Source of the DNA: Guptibacillus hwajinpoensis
GTDB taxonomy: Bacteria > Bacillota > Bacilli > Bacillales > Bacillaceae_O
Direction: 5' to 3'
Assembly (NCBI GenBank): GCA_016841765.1
Contig: JAENYN010000005.1
Span: 56,062-120,061 of the forward strand
Length of the DNA stretch: 64,000 nt
Part shown: positions 2,579 through 20,858 of the stretch, piece by piece
Numbering within the stretch: the first letter of the stretch is position 1
Layout: every line of letters starts with the position of its first letter
Made by a program: the position numbers and the translations under genes
The notes under the pieces: generated by a model
Told to the model about the DNA's origin: nothing
The model's input: only the letters and a program-made list of their open reading frames with translations
Database searches by the model: none

Positions 2579-4153
2579 TTAAGCCGTAGGATCGGCCTGT
2601 TTTTCCTCAAACTGTTTCCTCAACAGGAATTTCTGGATCTTACCGCTCGCATTTCGCGGCAATTCTTCTACGAAATAGTACGCCCGCGGCCGTTTATAGT
2701 CAGCCAGATGGTCACTGTTTTTACAATAGGCATCCAACTCTTCTTCTGTCAGGGTTTCATCTTTCTTCACGACGACTGCGGCAACCCGCTCGCCCCACTT
2801 TTCATCCGGCTCGCCAAGAACGGCGACATCAAGAATCCCTTCATGGGCGTGCAGCAAGTCTTCCACTTCCCGTGGATATACGTTTTCGCCTCCACTGATA
2901 ATCATGTCGTCGACTCTGTCAGCCACATACAAATATCCGTCCTCGTCCAAGAAACCGAGATCGCTTGAATGGTACCAGCCTTTATACAGCGCTTTTTCCG
3001 TCGCCTCTTCCCTGTTATAGTATCCGGCCATCATGCAAGGGCCCTTGATGATGATTTCGCCCACTTCACCAGGCGGCAACATATCATCCGGTTCCGACGG
3101 GCCGTTTTCATTCGGCCGCACCACCCGGATTTCATGATTGTAGGCGGCTTTGCCGGCTGAACCGGCTTTCGTGATTTGCTCGTTCTCGGCCAAAAATGTG
3201 ACGGCAGGCCCCATCTCCGTCTGTCCATATGCCTGAATCAGGTCAATGCCAAGGCGCTCCCGCACCGCTTTTACAAGGACAGGGGCCATTGGCGCTGCTC
3301 CATATAGCCCGATACGGAGGGAATCAAGCTTAACGTTTCCAAGATCTTCCTGAAGAAGCATGTTCCACATCGTCGGAGCCGCGAAAAAGGTTGTAACTTT
3401 CTCCTCCTCAATCGCGCGAAGCACCTGTTTCGGTTCAAAATGGTGGATGATTATATTGCTGCCGCCGGTATGAACACGCGGGAGGAACGCACAATGAAGC
3501 TCGGCACAGTGGAACATCGGGGCGGTGACAAGCCCGGTATCCTGATCCGACAATTTGATTACCGCAGCACAGATCAAGCTCATTTCCACCATATCACGGT
3601 GGCGATGAAGCACTCCTTTAGGCCGGCCGGTTGTCCCGCTTGTATACATGATGGCATACATGTCATCCTCGCTTACGTCGACAGCCGGTTCGTCAGCAGA
3701 AGCCCGGTTCATTTTTTCATAATAGTTTTCCGCATATTCAGGTGTGTCTTCATTGATATACCAGAATGCCGTATCCGGATGCTGTTCATAAACGGTTTTC
3801 ACCTGGTCAGCAAGTGCTTTTTCAAATAAAAACACCCTGGGCTTGGCGTCCCTGAGAATATAATCGATTTCCTGGGCTTTGAGCCGGAAATTGATCGGAT
3901 TCAGCACCGCGCCGATTTTGGCGCTGGCGAAAAAAACGGTAGCCAGCTCACTCGAGTTGAACAGAAACGTCGAAATCCTGTCCCCTTTTTTCACCCCGGC
4001 TTCCATAAGGGCATTTGCAAGGCGATGGACATCATCCCGCCATTCTTCGTACGTCCACCGTTTATTCAGCGTCTTGTCCACCAGTGCTTCCTTTTTCGGG
4101 AACTTCAGAACCGTCTGGTCAAAAATTGTTCCGATTGTCGGATGAAAAGCCAT
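2579..4153 (-). CDS. Long-chain fatty-acid-CoA ligase (AMP-binding, FadD-like)
   Basis: 524 residues. It activates fatty acids to acyl-CoA through an acyl-adenylate. The ATP/AMP signature YTSGTTGRPKG is at residues 170-180, YGQTEMGP and GWYHSSDLGF (motif II) follow, and NASGKIQKFLLR near the C-terminus carries the catalytic lysine of the mobile domain. AAGGGGATTGA precedes the ATG. It is the first gene of a four-gene leftward operon (ligase, dehydrogenase, racemase-like, second ligase), with a sigma-A promoter and a cre-like element upstream. Chain length and branching preference cannot be deduced. Confidence 0.93.
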   Translation of the reverse strand: MAFHPTIGTIFDQTVLKFPKKEALVDKTLNKRWTYEEWRDDVHRLANALMEAGVKKGDRISTFLFNSSELATVFFASAKIGAVLNPINFRLKAQEIDYILRDAKPRVFLFEKALADQVKTVYEQHPDTAFWYINEDTPEYAENYYEKMNRASADEPAVDVSEDDMYAIMYTSGTTGRPKGVLHRHRDMVEMSLICAAVIKLSDQDTGLVTAPMFHCAELHCAFLPRVHTGGSNIIIHHFEPKQVLRAIEEEKVTTFFAAPTMWNMLLQEDLGNVKLDSLRIGLYGAAPMAPVLVKAVRERLGIDLIQAYGQTEMGPAVTFLAENEQITKAGSAGKAAYNHEIRVVRPNENGPSEPDDMLPPGEVGEIIIKGPCMMAGYYNREEATEKALYKGWYHSSDLGFLDEDGYLYVADRVDDMIISGGENVYPREVEDLLHAHEGILDVAVLGEPDEKWGERVAAVVVKKDETLTEEELDAYCKNSDHLADYKRPRAYYFVEELPRNASGKIQKFLLRKQFEEKQADPTA

Positions 4154-4217: not shown

Positions 4218-4231
4218 CGAAAGCGTTTACA
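4218..4231 (-). promoter_or_regulatory. cre-like CcpA site in the fatty-acid operon leader
   Basis: The + strand reads cgaaagcgtttaca, matching the catabolite-responsive element consensus TGNAANCGNTNNCA at every defined base except the first. It lies downstream of the predicted -10 (4258-4263), between promoter and first start codon, where CcpA blocks elongation in other bacilli. Repression of fatty-acid oxidation by good carbon sources is inferred from this. Confidence 0.6.
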
Positions 4232-4287: not shown

Positions 4288-4381
4288 CACTTTTTCAAAA
4301 AAACTGCCAGATAATTGTTGCCTTTACAGAGAAAATCTTTTGAAAGTTCACATTTCCTCAACAGAATAAGGGTTTCCGCAA

Positions 4382-4390
4382 TGCTATAAT
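4382..4390 (+). promoter_or_regulatory. Extended -10 promoter of the putative structured RNA
   Basis: TGCTATAAT is a perfect -10 hexamer with the TGn extension. No good -35 lies at 17 bp, which extended -10 promoters tolerate. The predicted start is near 4397, ten bases before the first paired segment of the RNA. Confidence 0.5.
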
Positions 4391-4396
4391 GTAGGT

Positions 4397-4765
4397 GAAA
4401 TAATATAACAGCTGCAGAGACTCAGCCATCCTGGTTGGTTCCGTTCGAAAAACGAAGTACCAATCGGTGATCTTTTTTCCAGAAAGATATGAAGCAATGC
4501 ATGTAGGATGCATGACTGCTCTGATGGAGAGTCCACTAAATGATACAGGGGGGTTGTCTCGTTTCCAGGCTTCTGAAAATAGAGAATTTTGCTTTACCCG
4601 CCCCATCTGTTCGCAGCGGAAGCAACACACACGAGATCCTCGTGCTTTTAAGGCCAGGTTGCCTGGTATGGCATGCCTGCCAATCATTAAAAAATCGAGT
4701 GTCCTGTGGCATGGTTGGGTCCCTGGAGCTGTTAGCGAAAACCGGCATGAGTGCCGGTTTTTTCT
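4397..4765 (+). ncRNA. Unidentified structured RNA, about 330-370 nt
   Basis: The gap between two divergent operons holds no convincing protein but strong RNA-like pairing. A long closing helix joins 4407-4413 (AACAGCT) with 4727-4733, CAG 4415-4417 with CTG 4723-4725, and the 11 bases of 4419-4429 with 4711-4721. Inside are hairpins at 4434-4462, 4493-4520 (10 bp with a three-base bulge), 4630-4644 (CACGAG/CTCGTG) and 4654-4666 (CCAGG/CCTGG). An extended -10 promoter precedes it and an intrinsic terminator follows at once. I could not match it to RNase P RNA, tmRNA, SRP RNA, T-box or the common riboswitch cores. A cis-acting role on the next gene is unlikely because the terminator intervenes. 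Confidence 0.55.
4738..4764 (+). terminator. Intrinsic terminator of the structured RNA
   Basis: AAAACCGGCA, a four-base loop and TGCCGGTTTTTT form a GC stem followed by six T on the + strand. It begins 5 nt after the closing helix. Confidence 0.8.
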
Positions 4766-4968
4766 GTGCAACAAAAAGGAAATAGAACCTCGTTTTCCGG
4801 GCAGATCTGCATCCGTGCAGGATGTTCCCTCGTCCCCTGCCGTTACCGGCATCCCATCCCAGGCACTGAATGCGATCGTGCACACACAGCCGCTGAATTG
4901 CAATATTTTCCCTTTTATCTTCCATATCATGTTAATCTGAAAACAGTATCAAGAAAGGGGAAATGATA

Positions 4969-15703: not shown

Positions 15704-15732
15704 CACACTGTGTCATCCGCCCACATAGTATA
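15704..15732 (+). promoter_or_regulatory. Sigma-K-type promoter of the YheC/YheD operon
   Basis: CACA at 15704-15707, a 16-bp gap, and CATAGTATA at 15724-15732 fit the mother-cell sigma-K consensus (mACm, 16 bp, CATAnnnTA) at all defined bases. It lies 55 bp before the first ATG-grasp-family start codon. Late sporulation expression is inferred. Confidence 0.6.
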
Positions 15733-15787
15733 CGATATCACAACGCACCTATCCAGTATTAACCATCATAAAAGAGGGATTGTCCTT

Positions 15788-17149
15788 ATGGTCACCGTTG
15801 TTCATGCGCAATATATTAAAAAGGAACCGGGCGCTTTTCCCGCAGAAAATCAACTTCTTCTGACAGAATCATTGGCAAAGCGGCTTAAGCTTTCCGGCCA
15901 GCCGGCCGTTCATCTTAAGGCCGGTGATGTAACCGCAGCAGCAGCGCCCGCCATCATGGATGGAGAAGGCTACCTTTTCTCTGTCAGCCCAGGCCTTCAA
16001 AACGTTTTAAGACTGCCGGATGAAACATTTAATATTCGGGTCCATTATTCGTCAGCTGAAAACATGTTCAAAATCGGCCCCTTCATTGCTATTCTTGCCG
16101 ACAAAACGTATCCGGGTGCAGACCCGCCCTGCGGAAAACTTTCAGCTTACTACGAAGAACTGTCCGAATATGCCCAACACCAGCACCTTGGCATGTATAT
16201 CTTTTCCCCGGAAAACTGGGATGTTAAGCAAATGAACGGAATGGTTTACCTGGGAGGCAGTTGGAAACAGGCGGCAGTGCCGGTGCCTGATATTGTCCAT
16301 AACCGCGTCAGTTCCCGCCGGTTCGAGCAGACAGAAGCATTCGGAAAAATCCGGGAGCACTGCATTGCACAAAGCATCCCGTTTTTCAATCACCAGTTCT
16401 TAAATAAGTGGCATGTGAAAGAAATGCTCGATAATTGTCCGGAAATCGGCCCGTATCTTCCCGAGACAGTCCTCCTCAACAGCAAATCGGTTTTAAGGAA
16501 CATGATTTTGAAACATGAAAGGGTCTACCTCAAACCGATTCACGGCAGCCAGGGCAGGGACATTTTCATGGTGTTTATCGCCGAAGAAGGGTTTGTCCTC
16601 CATAGCACCAGAACCGCAACAGCTGCCAGAGTCTTTCAAACAGTTGAAGAGTTGTTTGATGAAATCGTACCTGTTATCAGAAAAGAAAGATACCTTGCAC
16701 AAGAAGGACTCTCGTTGATATCCCGCAACAACAGCCCGCTTGATTTCCGGTTCCTTTGCCATCAAATATCGGCCGGAAAATGGATTATCACCTCGGAAAC
16801 CGCACGCCTTTCTTCGCCCGGCCACTTTGTCTCCAACATCGCCATGGGCGGCAGCCTGGTGAAGCCAATGGAAGTCTTAAAGGAAGTATTCGGAATAACA
16901 CGCGGTAAAGAAATCCTGCTTGCTATGAGGGAAATTGCCGTCAATACAGCAGCAGCCGTCAGCAGTGAGGCAGATGGCACATATGCTGAACTCGGGCTTG
17001 ATATTGCAGCAGATACAAATGGAAAACCGTGGATCATCGAAGTGAATACCAAGCCTTCCAAAGACATGTCCGCCACCCCCTCCAGCAAGAACACGCGACC
17101 TTCTGCAAGGGCTATCATCGACATCAGCCGGGGTATGGCAACTGTATAA
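15788..17149 (+). CDS. YheC/YheD-family ATP-grasp protein, paralogue 1
   Basis: 453 residues. The ~100-residue N-terminal beta-rich domain includes VHYSSAENMFKIGPFIAIL. The linker motif is DIVHNRVSSRRFEQ. The ATP-grasp domain has VYLKPIHGSQGRD, where the glycine loop ends RD instead of the KG of its neighbours, and the metal-binding end GLDIAADTNGKPWIIEVNTKP. ATP-grasp enzymes join a carboxylate to an amine or thiol through acyl phosphate; no substrate is known for YheC/YheD. An AGAGGG sequence lies 9 nt before the ATG. It is first of four tandem paralogues and, with paralogue 4, seems additional to the B. subtilis yheC-yheD pair. The changed glycine loop could lower activity. Confidence 0.88.
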   Translation: MVTVVHAQYIKKEPGAFPAENQLLLTESLAKRLKLSGQPAVHLKAGDVTAAAAPAIMDGEGYLFSVSPGLQNVLRLPDETFNIRVHYSSAENMFKIGPFIAILADKTYPGADPPCGKLSAYYEELSEYAQHQHLGMYIFSPENWDVKQMNGMVYLGGSWKQAAVPVPDIVHNRVSSRRFEQTEAFGKIREHCIAQSIPFFNHQFLNKWHVKEMLDNCPEIGPYLPETVLLNSKSVLRNMILKHERVYLKPIHGSQGRDIFMVFIAEEGFVLHSTRTATAARVFQTVEELFDEIVPVIRKERYLAQEGLSLISRNNSPLDFRFLCHQISAGKWIITSETARLSSPGHFVSNIAMGGSLVKPMEVLKEVFGITRGKEILLAMREIAVNTAAAVSSEADGTYAELGLDIAADTNGKPWIIEVNTKPSKDMSATPSSKNTRPSARAIIDISRGMATV

Positions 17150-17204
17150 ACGAATCAGTGGATAGTCGGTACAATTGTTACGTCTTACAAAAGGAGGAAT
17201 CCCA

Positions 17205-18293
17205 TTGCGATTCGGTTTTTTATCGCTAGCTGAAGATCACGAGTCTCAATACGCCGCACAATTAGCCAGGCGGAGCAGGGACTTCGGTTTGGACTTTATT
17301 AAATTCACACCGTTTTCAATCGATCCGAAAACGGAATTGGCAGAGGGGCTTGTTTTCGATACAGCGAAAGGCGGATGGACAAAAGCCGTCCACCCTCTTC
17401 CGGAAATCATTTACGATCGCTGTTTTTATGGGATAACAGGCAGTTCGCCTGGAGACGGCAAAGCGATCGTTTCATGGCTCAAGCAAAGAGGAGACAGCCA
17501 TTTTATCGGAAACGGCCTGCCGGATAAGCTGAAAGTTGCGGCTATTATCAGCGCAGACAGCACACTGAAACACTATCTGCCGGAAACACACTCCGCCAGT
17601 TCGCCAGAAACGGTCATCGACTATATTGAAGCCAGGGGAAAAGTAATCTTGAAGCCTGCGGCTGGATCACAGGGCAAAGGCATTATCGTCATTGAAAAAG
17701 AGAAAGCATCATATATATGGTATGTCCAATCCAACAACATGCTGAAAACAACTGCCGTCACCGCTGATACGCTAAAAGCCTGGCTGAGACTCACGCTGGA
17801 TCGTGAGCAGTACTTGCTGCAGCCTTACTTACAGCTGATCGATCATGATGAACGGCCTTTTGATATCAGGATTCTTTTGCAAAAAGATGAAAACGGCGGC
17901 TGGGTGGAACGGGGGATCGGCGTACGCCGCGGACGTCCGGGAACAATCCTTTCAAACCTTCATGCAGGTGCTGCCCCTGTCTGTTATACGGACTGGACCG
18001 GACAGCTTTCAAAGCTTCAGGCAAGGATTGTCGAGGATGAAATTTTGACGATAACCGAACGCATTCCCGCTGTTCTCGAAAAAGCTTTCCCATCTTTATT
18101 CGAGCTGGGGATCGATCTTGGTGTGGCCCGCAACGGCAGTGTGTGGATTCTTGATATCAATTCAAAACCCGGCCACCAGTTAATCAGGTCCCTTTACCCT
18201 TCAAAAACCGACGGCCTGTACCGGGCACCGCTTGCCTATGCCGCCGGCCTCATTCGAAAAGGAGTGATCCAACGTGAGGAAAATCGTTTATGA
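17205..18293 (+). CDS. yheC: YheC/YheD-family ATP-grasp protein, YheC-like
   Basis: 362 residues, matching B. subtilis YheC in length and lacking most of the N-terminal domain of the other three paralogues. It opens RFGFLSLAEDHESQYA, followed by EIIYDRCFYG. The ATP-grasp core is VILKPAAGSQGKGIIVIE, a complete glycine loop, and GIDLGVARNGSVWILDINSKPG, with Asp and Asn for magnesium. The start is TTG at 17205: AAGGAGG sits 7 nt upstream and the alternative start at 17175 would bury that sequence. Its 3' end overlaps the next gene by 20 bp, so the genes are coupled. Homologues are described as spore-coat associated (family knowledge). Confidence 0.88.
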   Translation: MRFGFLSLAEDHESQYAAQLARRSRDFGLDFIKFTPFSIDPKTELAEGLVFDTAKGGWTKAVHPLPEIIYDRCFYGITGSSPGDGKAIVSWLKQRGDSHFIGNGLPDKLKVAAIISADSTLKHYLPETHSASSPETVIDYIEARGKVILKPAAGSQGKGIIVIEKEKASYIWYVQSNNMLKTTAVTADTLKAWLRLTLDREQYLLQPYLQLIDHDERPFDIRILLQKDENGGWVERGIGVRRGRPGTILSNLHAGAAPVCYTDWTGQLSKLQARIVEDEILTITERIPAVLEKAFPSLFELGIDLGVARNGSVWILDINSKPGHQLIRSLYPSKTDGLYRAPLAYAAGLIRKGVIQREENRL

Positions 18294-19641
18294 AATTCGC
18301 CAAACCTCAGATGACAGTGCATCCATCTTTGTTCCGGAAGATTTTTTCCCTTCTGTAGAAGGATGCACGTCCATTGCATTTGGACTTGCGGTACTACCCT
18401 GTACAATAAAAGCAGCGAAGCATCTGGACCGAACGGTGGAAATGTCTGCTTCCCTGTTCAGGGAACTCGGTATTCCCGCTGAAGGGCCGCTGCACTTGAT
18501 AGAGCATGACAATACACTGCATCTCGGACCGCTCGTCGGCATTTTCACCGCAGGGTTCACAGGTCAGAACCTGCGGCCGGCCGGTGAACGATCCTTCTTC
18601 TTTGCCCGGCTGCTGACTGCTGCAGGAACGGTTCATGCTCATGCTTTCATTTTCGGCAAGCACCATATCGACTGGGAACACGAAACCATAAAGGGGTACT
18701 TTTATACATCGGACGGCTGGGAACAAAAAACGGTTCCTTTCCCGCATGTGATTTATGACCGGCTCCCCAACCGCCGGACAGAAAGCCTGGACGAATTCCA
18801 GGAACTGCGCCGCCGCCTTCAGCTCGATTATTCGATTCCATGGTACAACCCGGGATTCTTTGATAAATGGACCATTCATGAAATTTTCGGCAAATACCCG
18901 AAAAGTGCCATCATGATTCCGACCGCTGTCAAAAGTCCGACAGCACAAGAGATCCAGGAATTGATCGACCGCTATGGCCAGGTCTATATCAAGCCAATCA
19001 ACGGTAGTCTGGGGAAGGGTGTCGTCCAGTTGATAAAGGACCAGGACGGAACATCTTACTATGCCCGGTTTCGCAGCGGCGGGAAAAATCGCCTGCGCCG
19101 CTATCCGTCCCTGGGCCAGCTGTTGCAGAGCATTTACCCCGATGAAAATTTTAATAGCCTGATGATTCAGCAAGGGATCATCCTGAAGCGGACGCAGGGG
19201 CAAAAGTACGACTTCAGAGTCCATACGAATAAAAACGAAGACGGACAATGGCAGGTAACCGGGATTGCCGCCAAACTTGCCGGCCCCGGGAGCCTGACCA
19301 CCCATCTCAGCAGCGGCGGTAAAGTTTTCACGCTGGAAGAGTTGTACATTGATGCGGCCGAACGGCGAAAAATCGAACGTACCATTTCTGAAGCCGTATT
19401 GCTTCTCAGTTCACTTCTCGACAGGCACTTGAAAGGGAACCTGGGTGAAGTCGGCTTTGATATCGGCATCGACAAAGAAAACAGGCTCTGGGTGTTTGAA
19501 GCCAACTCAAAGCCCGGACGGTCGATCTTTTATCACCCGGGCCTGAAGGAGTCGGAAATCCTGACGCGAAAGCTGCCGATCTCCTACGGCCTATACCTGG
19601 CCGAGAAAAACATCAAGTCCGGAAGACGGCTGAAAACATGA
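18274..19641 (+). CDS. yheD: YheC/YheD-family ATP-grasp protein, YheD-like
   Basis: 455 residues, matching B. subtilis YheD in length. The N-terminal domain contains HLGPLVGIFTAGF, and the joining motif is HVIYDRLPNRRTES. The ATP-grasp core VYIKPINGSLGKGVVQL and the end GFDIGIDKENRLWVFEANSKPGRS keep all expected nucleotide and metal ligands. The start is GTG at 18274, with AAGGAG upstream, inside the end of the previous gene. The stop overlaps the next ATG by 4 bp. Late-sporulation mother-cell expression is likely through the operon promoter. The ligase substrate is unknown. Confidence 0.9.
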   Translation: MRKIVYEIRQTSDDSASIFVPEDFFPSVEGCTSIAFGLAVLPCTIKAAKHLDRTVEMSASLFRELGIPAEGPLHLIEHDNTLHLGPLVGIFTAGFTGQNLRPAGERSFFFARLLTAAGTVHAHAFIFGKHHIDWEHETIKGYFYTSDGWEQKTVPFPHVIYDRLPNRRTESLDEFQELRRRLQLDYSIPWYNPGFFDKWTIHEIFGKYPKSAIMIPTAVKSPTAQEIQELIDRYGQVYIKPINGSLGKGVVQLIKDQDGTSYYARFRSGGKNRLRRYPSLGQLLQSIYPDENFNSLMIQQGIILKRTQGQKYDFRVHTNKNEDGQWQVTGIAAKLAGPGSLTTHLSSGGKVFTLEELYIDAAERRKIERTISEAVLLLSSLLDRHLKGNLGEVGFDIGIDKENRLWVFEANSKPGRSIFYHPGLKESEILTRKLPISYGLYLAEKNIKSGRRLKT

Positions 19642-20858
19642 TCATTTATTACGACCAGGCTTCTTCGACCTGGACCTGCCGTGGTGAGGGGAAAATCTGC
19701 ATCTTCGGAAAAAACGGAAGCATCAGCTCGCGGAAAAGCCCGGAATCGGCGGTGGCTTTTCCGGTACGAATGAATGAAAACCGGGCCGGGCCGCTTGTCG
19801 GGATTGCGGCATCTCCCGGTAAAAGGGCACGCTTTAAAGGGAACGTTGAATTTTTCGAGGACATCCAGCGGACACTGTTTAAAAAAGGCGGGATATCCTT
19901 TGTCTTTTCCCCGGCAGACTTCAACGGCGGACAGCTGGAGGGAGCCGTCTTTCTCCCTGTTGAAAACAGGTGGTCGACAGCCGTCTTTCCCTGCCCCGAT
20001 GTCATCTATAACCGGATTCCCGAACGCCGGTATGAACGCGGTGCAGCGGCGCAAACCTTCTTCTCCAGACTCCGGGAACTGAAAATCCCATATTTCAACG
20101 GCAACTTTTTCAATAAATGGGAAGCACTGAATGCTCTTCAGCATCATCCCGATATAAAAGTCCATATTCCCGAGACTGCCTCATTTGATGATGAATCAAT
20201 ATGGCGGGATCTTTTGGCTCGATACGGCACAGTTTTCATAAAACCGATCGACGGCTGTAAAGGCAAGGGAATTACAAAGCTTGAAAATAGGGACGGATCC
20301 CTGCTTCTCAGACAACAGAAAGAGCCTGCGGTTAAGTGTGAAGAAGAGACTTTGATAAACATGTTCAAAAAGAAACAATATCTTGTCCAGGCTGCTATCC
20401 AACTGCCGCTTTTTGAAGGAAGCCCTTATGATTTCAGGATTCTTTGCCATAAACATAACCAAACCTGGTCTGTCAGCGGTGTCGGCGTACGACAGGCCGG
20501 TGAACATGCGGTGACGACGCATGTTCCTCAAGGCGGAAAAATCCTTGACATAGATGAAGTTCCAATTCATCCCGACATCCGGGAGTTTAAACGGATCCTT
20601 CCTGAAATCGGAAAAACACTTGAGCAATTGGCGGGACCTTTATATGAATTTTCCGTCGATGCCGGCGTGTCCCCGGAAGGCCGCCTGGCTATTTTTGAGG
20701 CAAATGCCAAGCCGATGCGCTTTGATGAACCTGCAATCCGCAGCACCCACTTTGAAGCACTAACCGATCTCTTCATGGAGCTCGCTGATTTTCAGGAAGG
20801 AATCAGCAGGGGCCGTACAGAAATATTGGTACAGCCTGAAAAAATAATCGATGTATAA
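19638..20858 (+). CDS. YheC/YheD-family ATP-grasp protein, paralogue 4
   Basis: 406 residues, about 50 shorter than YheD in its N-terminal domain but retaining GPLVGIAASPG and DVIYNRIPERRYE. The glycine loop reads FIKPIDGCKGKGITKLE, with Cys in place of the usual Ser. The metal site SVDAGVSPEGRLAIFEANAKP is present. It starts at an ATGA overlap with yheD, and yheE follows 22 bp downstream, so it belongs to the operon. Each of the four copies differs at the glycine loop and N-terminus, which suggests divergence toward different substrates rather than dosage. Confidence 0.87.
   Translation: MIIYYDQASSTWTCRGEGKICIFGKNGSISSRKSPESAVAFPVRMNENRAGPLVGIAASPGKRARFKGNVEFFEDIQRTLFKKGGISFVFSPADFNGGQLEGAVFLPVENRWSTAVFPCPDVIYNRIPERRYERGAAAQTFFSRLRELKIPYFNGNFFNKWEALNALQHHPDIKVHIPETASFDDESIWRDLLARYGTVFIKPIDGCKGKGITKLENRDGSLLLRQQKEPAVKCEEETLINMFKKKQYLVQAAIQLPLFEGSPYDFRILCHKHNQTWSVSGVGVRQAGEHAVTTHVPQGGKILDIDEVPIHPDIREFKRILPEIGKTLEQLAGPLYEFSVDAGVSPEGRLAIFEANAKPMRFDEPAIRSTHFEALTDLFMELADFQEGISRGRTEILVQPEKIIDV

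Follow-up and report, generated by a model that had tools for sequence, protein, structure and literature searches.

A family of predicted structured RNAs in Bacilli with a long closing helix and a variable interior

The window that we analyzed is a stretch of 64,000 nucleotides from Guptibacillus hwajinpoensis (contig JAENYN010000005.1). Near its beginning, a minus-strand acyl-CoA ligase-like gene (start codon at 4153) and a downstream glyoxalase-like gene that starts at 4963 (both named by eye) are the neighbors of a predicted RNA of about 330 nt, with a predicted transcript of about 367 nt. The copy at 4397-4763 comes with an extended -10 element, a helix that closes it, structure in its interior, and a terminator. 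Across 4382-4763, a 24-nt arm pairs with a second arm that lies about 280 nt downstream, and there are several internal helices. An earlier note on this DNA had placed the extended -10 element, the AACAGCT and 11-base blocks of the helix, and the terminator, and all of these coordinates are correct on the sequence. The features of the locus are:

4346..4370, plus strand: conserved upstream promoter segment (GTTCACATTTCCTCAACAG...), which resembles the tandem YCACA-type site found upstream of other copies, although its second half-site is degenerate in this one
4382..4390, plus strand: extended -10 promoter TGC-TATAAT, read from the sequence, without a -35 hexamer; predicted start near 4397
4406..4429, plus strand: 5' strand of the closing helix, P1 (sequence, MFE, and covariation over 66 distinct P1 pairs)
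4433-4439 with 4459-4465, plus strand: P2 hairpin (pairing read from the sequence)
4434..4443, plus strand: 5' strand of P3, GUUGGUUCCG, which in the window MFE structure pairs with 4617-4626 with one mismatch
4438-4442, plus strand: GUUCC motif in P2, aligned in 39 chosen 5' ends, of which a few deviate
4466..4616, plus strand: variable domain, whose sequence and length differ between clades
4617..4631, plus strand: 3' strand of P3, CGGAAGCAAC, then the ACACA linker (4627-4631)
4632..4710, plus strand: 3' domain up to P1, which P4 would close
4711..4734, plus strand: 3' strand of P1, ATGGTTGGGTCCCTGGAGCTGTTA (sequence, MFE, and covariation)
4738..4763, plus strand: intrinsic terminator hairpin and T run (sequence and MFE), 96% identical over 25 nt in the sister species G001

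In the window, 22 of the 25 positions of P1 pair. The outer part, AACAGCT at 4407-4413, pairs with AGCTGTT at 4727-4733, and the inner part, the conserved core GACTCAGCCAT at 4419-4429, pairs with ATGGTTGGGTC at 4711-4721, with two G-U pairs; between these blocks, 4415-4417 form three extra pairs with 4723-4725, and there are two mismatches. The MFE of the RNA (4397-4765) is -136.3 kcal/mol; 100 dinucleotide shuffles give -105.8 (sd 5.2), so that z = -5.9, and not one of them folds as well. The opposite strand likewise folds well (z = -4.4), so fold energy by itself does not decide the strand. A pattern scanner that was run over the window listed neither the promoter (4382-4390), because it has no -35 hexamer, nor the terminator (4738-4763), because the T run is part of its stem. 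Upstream of the minus-strand acyl-CoA operon, we take GAAAGCGTTTACA at 4219-4231 to be a cre-like site (from its motif), and this site probably serves that operon and not the RNA. Elsewhere in the window, there are four successive ATP-grasp-like frames (15710-20858), which by eye we presume to resemble the spore proteins YheC/YheD.

G001 is a same-genus relative, and no further species of the genus turned up in the analysis. The RNA is 88.2% identical between the window and G001 (over 340 nt), and the flanks are 63.8% identical over 80 nt upstream and 46.8% identical over 190 nt downstream. The segment at 4346-4370 is nearly identical in G001 while the remaining upstream flank diverges. Both genomes have a second copy of the RNA: one of 753 nt in the window's genome (G000:C5:94543, in L179), and one of 755 nt in G001 (C29:49443, in L180).

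BLAST with the window copy alone against 61 genomes matched only its own genome, G001, and, over a stretch of 54 nt, G007. The copy in G007 led to the Halobacillus family (f7), in which 24 of 44 genomes match and 21 were verified by pairing. (The f7 genomes that we dropped are G092 and G093, with a terminator match only, and G080, which is cut by contig ends.) When a degenerate pattern for the 3' arm was searched for in a named genome collection, it matched 40 stretches, across the six genera of Bacilli named below along with chance matches; ten of the 40, from unrelated bacteria, were rejected as chance because they had no good 5' partner. Starting from a Mesobacillus copy, BLAST matched 67 of 397 genomes of the order at E ≤ 0.01, not all of which are true. 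With a model of the 5' part (R2), at the same E ≤ 0.01, 74 of the 397 genomes matched; they fall into 33 of 135 genera, and 64 of the 74 were verified by P1 pairing. R2 genomes that lie outside the verified set and are unexamined are G043, G144, G178, G252, G290, G302, G315, and G349; G052 and G072 were left out of this set, yet P1 is visible in them. With a model of the 3'-terminal 119 nt (R1), which did less well than R2, just three families came up in the 397 genomes, since each clade has its own sequence in the interior of the 3' part. In family f47, 76 of 151 genomes match by model score at E ≤ 1e-4, and ten of the 76 are verified. A scan of the class matched 6 of 398 genomes at E ≤ 1e-3, of which five are verified: three were already known and two, verified by pairing, belong to a second order (f64), while G731 is unverified. 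As for the batches of loci, 24 were verified in one batch of 30 (L138, from G141, was verified later with a looser motif), and a batch of 34 was verified throughout (L190 is the same as L112 and was counted once).

The 97 copies of the verified set are those that we gathered, not all that exist; they come from 80 genomes or species, which span 19 GTDB-style families and, within Bacilli, at least two orders. Copies inside a clade are kin, so that their counts are not independent events. The genera include Halobacillus, Thalassobacillus, Pontibacillus, Alkalicoccus, Neobacillus, and Mesobacillus. Genomes in this set have one to three copies, and the copies measure 256-1001 nt from P1 to P1 (median 429, 97 copies). 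The copies in L071 and L073 from Pontibacillus (952 and 1001 nt) have the same ends as copies of 256-450 nt, and we attribute their length to large insertions in the periphery. Two genomes of Halobacillus litoralis have three copies each within about 2.4 kb (L036 6550-8920 and L037 6530-8860); every copy in these clusters has a promoter of its own, and by the rule that we used, a terminator follows two of the three copies per cluster. The genes beside the copies differ between families, and we saw no gene that consistently adjoins the RNA (flanks were judged by eye). With one Halobacillus copy as the query, there were no matches in phage and plasmid collections, and three patterns had no matches in viral contigs. 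We are close to certain that this RNA family exists.

Comparison of the copies shows that P1 brings the two ends of the RNA together and that its strands have changed in concert over the family. Across the 97 copies, 22-25 of its 25 positions pair. For the analysis of covariation we used 93 copies, which is the set before four copies from f64 joined; these have 66 distinct pairs of arms, in which 1565 of the 1650 cells of P1 are paired (94.8%). The covariation that the earlier note looked to in the closing helix is strong: 15 of the 25 pairs change on both sides, in 171 cells. If the arms are slid relative to each other, then pairing is 26-45% and there are at most 30 cells with two-sided changes, and in 1000 shuffles there are at most 68 such cells, versus 171 in the real data. 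(In a control with random 25-mers, the real elements were left unmasked, so its few values of at least 22 may include true copies.) At position -10, for instance, A-U, U-A, C-G, and G-C are used 16, 16, 16, and 9 times. The inner pairs hardly vary across the family, and the inner core (CUCA(A/G)CCAU / AUGGUUG(A/G)GUC-type) is family-defining. Within f7, the ends are nearly invariant, including the promoter, a 25-bp helix (TAAACAACTTAGGTGGCTCAACCAT / ATGGTTGGGTCACCTAAGTTGTTTA), and the terminator. A consensus fold of 17 copies from f7 recovers P1, P3, and P4; two-sided change is confined to 4 of 57 pairs, as the ends are almost constant within this family.

Position -3 of P1 is unpaired in 35 of the 66 distinct pairs, mostly as A-C, inside an otherwise paired helix, and this mismatch may be a recognition feature. 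On the transcribed strand, G-U cells outnumber A-C cells by 193 to 55 in the 93 copies, and by 139 to 46 over the 66 distinct P1 pairs, although this bias leans on few sites: positions -1 and +1 account for 84 of the 139 G-U cells, and the kept mismatch at position -3 accounts for 29 of the 46 A-C cells. An excess of G-U over A-C is the sign expected of an RNA from this strand. We also note that the 3' strand of P1 may resemble the 3' end of 16S rRNA; a search for 16S rRNA in the window's assembly found none.

Beyond P1, the shared core has P2, a hairpin with GUUCC in its loop region, and P3, a long-range helix that begins in that loop; the window copy carries P2 with its GUUCC, the P3 partner CGGAA, and the ACACA linker. 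The 5' strand of P3 overlaps P2, so P2 and P3 would form a pseudoknot or be alternatives. P3 is 10-12 bp long in the copies from f7 and f36 that were tested; in copies from f14, f17, f21, f30, f32, and f41, it is 10-11 bp long, has another sequence, and lies 158-176 nt from the 3' end. In many single copies, including the window's, the run length of P3 is not above that in shuffled sequence, so P3 rests on comparison, with clades that use different sequences. (In this test, G084, G087, and G241 were left out, as they do not have the motif regex, and the best runs in G136 and G139a were elsewhere.) By eye, most of the 19 families have a motif of the CGGAAC-NNACACA type; f7 and f36 have a GGAAACGAAUUC-type sequence in its place.

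P4 is supported across families. Its 3' strand abuts P1, and in most families its 5' strand follows the linker. The mean pairing of P4 in 50 chosen representatives is 5.44, versus at most 4.44 in 5000 permutations; judged by eye, the motif finder landed at a wrong place in some eleven of the 50 (for example, ALK, G036, and MES), which lowers the value from its true level. The candidate for P4 in the window (4627-4634 with 4695-4702) has one mismatch and is not kept in G001. The hypervariable middle of the RNA may explain why alignment-based pipelines missed the family.

A TGn-extended -10 element precedes 79 of the 97 copies, versus 14.3 when the same rule is applied to shuffled upstream sequence (the picker rewards TG, hence this control). 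A terminator-like hairpin follows 85 of the 97 copies, versus 2 of 97 in shuffled sequence; by the rule that we used, 12 of the 97 are without one. A tandem site, YACA-N7-YACA, lies upstream of 28 of the 97 copies, many of which are related, versus 0.5 in shuffles. It occurs mostly at one spacing (other spacers give 0-2), and the window copy does not match the strict pattern. From its sequence, the tandem site looks like one for the OmpR family, and we take ResD to be a candidate regulator; a literature search for a ResD consensus found none. A reading of the upstream site as cre (for CcpA) was dropped because what is conserved there is an 11-bp repeat in tandem.

Searching the window against Rfam 15, which covered RNase P, tmRNA, SRP, 6S, OLE, ROOL, GOLLD, riboswitches, and ribozymes, gave no families at the gathering threshold. 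In 60 further locus entries there were three matches, none of them on the RNA: 5S and LSU rRNA in L186, and BsrG in L130. The latter, a BsrG-type toxin-antitoxin RNA (RF01412, L130 2008-2255, plus strand), is near, but outside, the copy from G114. In permissive scans of three copies, all matches were far below threshold, and the best (E = 0.092) was to cow-rumen-4 on the opposite strand. The locus is also not the sole RNase P RNA of the genome, as a type B RNase P RNA (RF00011) is above the cut-off at G000:C16:73273-73664 (326.7 bits). We found no literature on this RNA family, although a supplementary file may list it. That no known class reaches threshold at the RNA agrees with the earlier note, which had proposed a stand-alone non-coding RNA, possibly of a new class; the Rfam search, the covariation, and the tests of reading frames described below all support that proposal.

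We propose, with somewhat more confidence than doubt, that this is a gene for a stand-alone structured RNA that would act in trans, likely as the scaffold of an RNA-protein complex. The scaffold role on its own is a guess from anatomy, and we hold it tentatively, at a little under an even chance. The combination of a long-range conserved core, a variable periphery, and closed ends suggests an RNA that acts as a physical particle, and a role in cis is unlikely because the flanking genes vary between families. Transcription would start at the extended -10 element, and a response regulator of the OmpR type, on the tandem upstream site, may raise it. In the folded RNA, P1 and P4 would stack and the loop of P2 would dock on P3. 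The linker, together with the almost constant inner half of P1, would be recognized by a conserved host protein, and the variable domain, at roughly 100 to 850 nt, would add clade-specific contacts.

The main rival is a regulator that base-pairs in trans: P1 would guard the ends, and exposed loops would pair with mRNAs. Long regulatory RNAs of this sort, such as RNAIII and RsaC, are found in Gram-positive bacteria. The RNA has its own promoter, in some copies the tandem upstream site, and in most its own terminator; some genomes have multiple copies; and a hypervariable interior with a conserved GUUCC hairpin would also fit. However, the best-conserved parts are paired (inner P1, P3, and P4) and are not loops, and in many clades GUUCC has a partner inside the RNA, so we consider such a regulator unlikely. 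The RNA might instead be a ribozyme or bind a small molecule, with P1-P2-P3-P4 as the active core and the variable domain as periphery, much as RNase P and group I introns have an active core with a periphery. The conserved core does include long-range helices and an ACACA-type linker, and the periphery does range from short to very long, but no Rfam model, those of ribozymes included, reaches threshold, and we think that catalysis or ligand binding is distinctly less probable than regulation by base pairing.

Could the locus be something other than an RNA gene? The arms of P1 are inverted repeats, there are clusters of two or three copies, and a few copies are near transposase-like genes (by eye), as would be expected if this were an inverted repeat at the DNA level or a small mobile element. 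But the differences between the arms favor G-U over A-C, as in an RNA of one strand; the promoter and the terminator are outside the arms, yet stay with them; the partners in P4 co-vary; and copies within one genome differ in their interiors. This makes a DNA-level element very improbable. A MITE in particular was rejected, as its arms should be free of strand bias (we found 139:46) and its flanks should be unrelated right up to the arms (the promoter, outside them, is conserved). We give the least credence of all to the idea that the region encodes a protein or a small peptide. There are open frames of 157, 81, and 190 amino acids at the RNA, the last of them antisense, and although the ATG of the 81-codon frame is missing in G001, the frame is open from there on. 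Several stops break both the 157-amino-acid frame and the 190-amino-acid antisense frame in G001, so the long frames whose conservation the earlier note had raised as a check are not kept in this same-genus relative. Neither the length nor the sequence of the interior is conserved between clades.

Returning to the structured RNA that acts in trans, the chances seem about even that the family is a new class, in which a pseudoknotted core (P1, P2/P3, the ACACA linker, and P4) is constant across Bacilli, the periphery takes up about 100-850 nt, each genome has 1-3 copies, a response regulator switches them, and the RNA is either part of an RNA-protein machine or a ribozyme. Half of the f47 genomes (76 of 151, by model score) and 74 of 397 genomes of the order match, and no Rfam 15 model does so at threshold. 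Because the family is defined by two end motifs, the P3/linker motif, and the P4 test, it can be searched for and tested straight away. Relative to the earlier view of a single locus, our analysis adds the family, a core with P3 and P4, a second copy in the same genome, and a spread across the Bacilli.

To our knowledge, there are few large structured RNAs that stand alone and have a conserved core, and OLE, ROOL, GOLLD, and raiA make up the usual list. Those that have been studied so far have unusual biology. OLE RNA is described as a large stand-alone structured RNA from Gram-positive extremophilic bacteria, whose function is poorly understood (PMC12286853, PMC9723947). The new family is similar in being large, stand-alone, structured, and present in Gram-positive extremophilic bacteria, but it differs in that no copy that we scanned has an Rfam match, its length is variable, and its core is different. 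One of these papers also describes ROOL and GOLLD as large ornate RNAs of bacteria and phage, without known function (PMC12286853). Our RNAs are likewise large, ornate, and bacterial, but they have no Rfam match, and both our patterns for viral contigs and our single phage search came up empty. Two papers present the raiA motif RNA, or ModT, as a widespread structured RNA of Bacillota (PMC11706538, PMC12286853), with a raiA construct of 205 nt (PMC11706538). The new family is also structured and spread widely in Bacillota, but it has no Rfam match, and its copies are 256-1001 nt long, versus 205 nt for that construct. Another paper lists Bacillaceae-1 RNA (RF01690) as an RNA motif for Bacillaceae (PMC2864571). 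It resembles the new family in coming from Bacillaceae, but it is an Rfam family by accession, and the RNA in the window has no match to RF01690. RNase P RNA has ends that are closed by P1, a long-range core, and a variable periphery. Although RNase P RNA has no match at our locus and the genome's proper type B copy is elsewhere, the new family shares all three of these traits with it.
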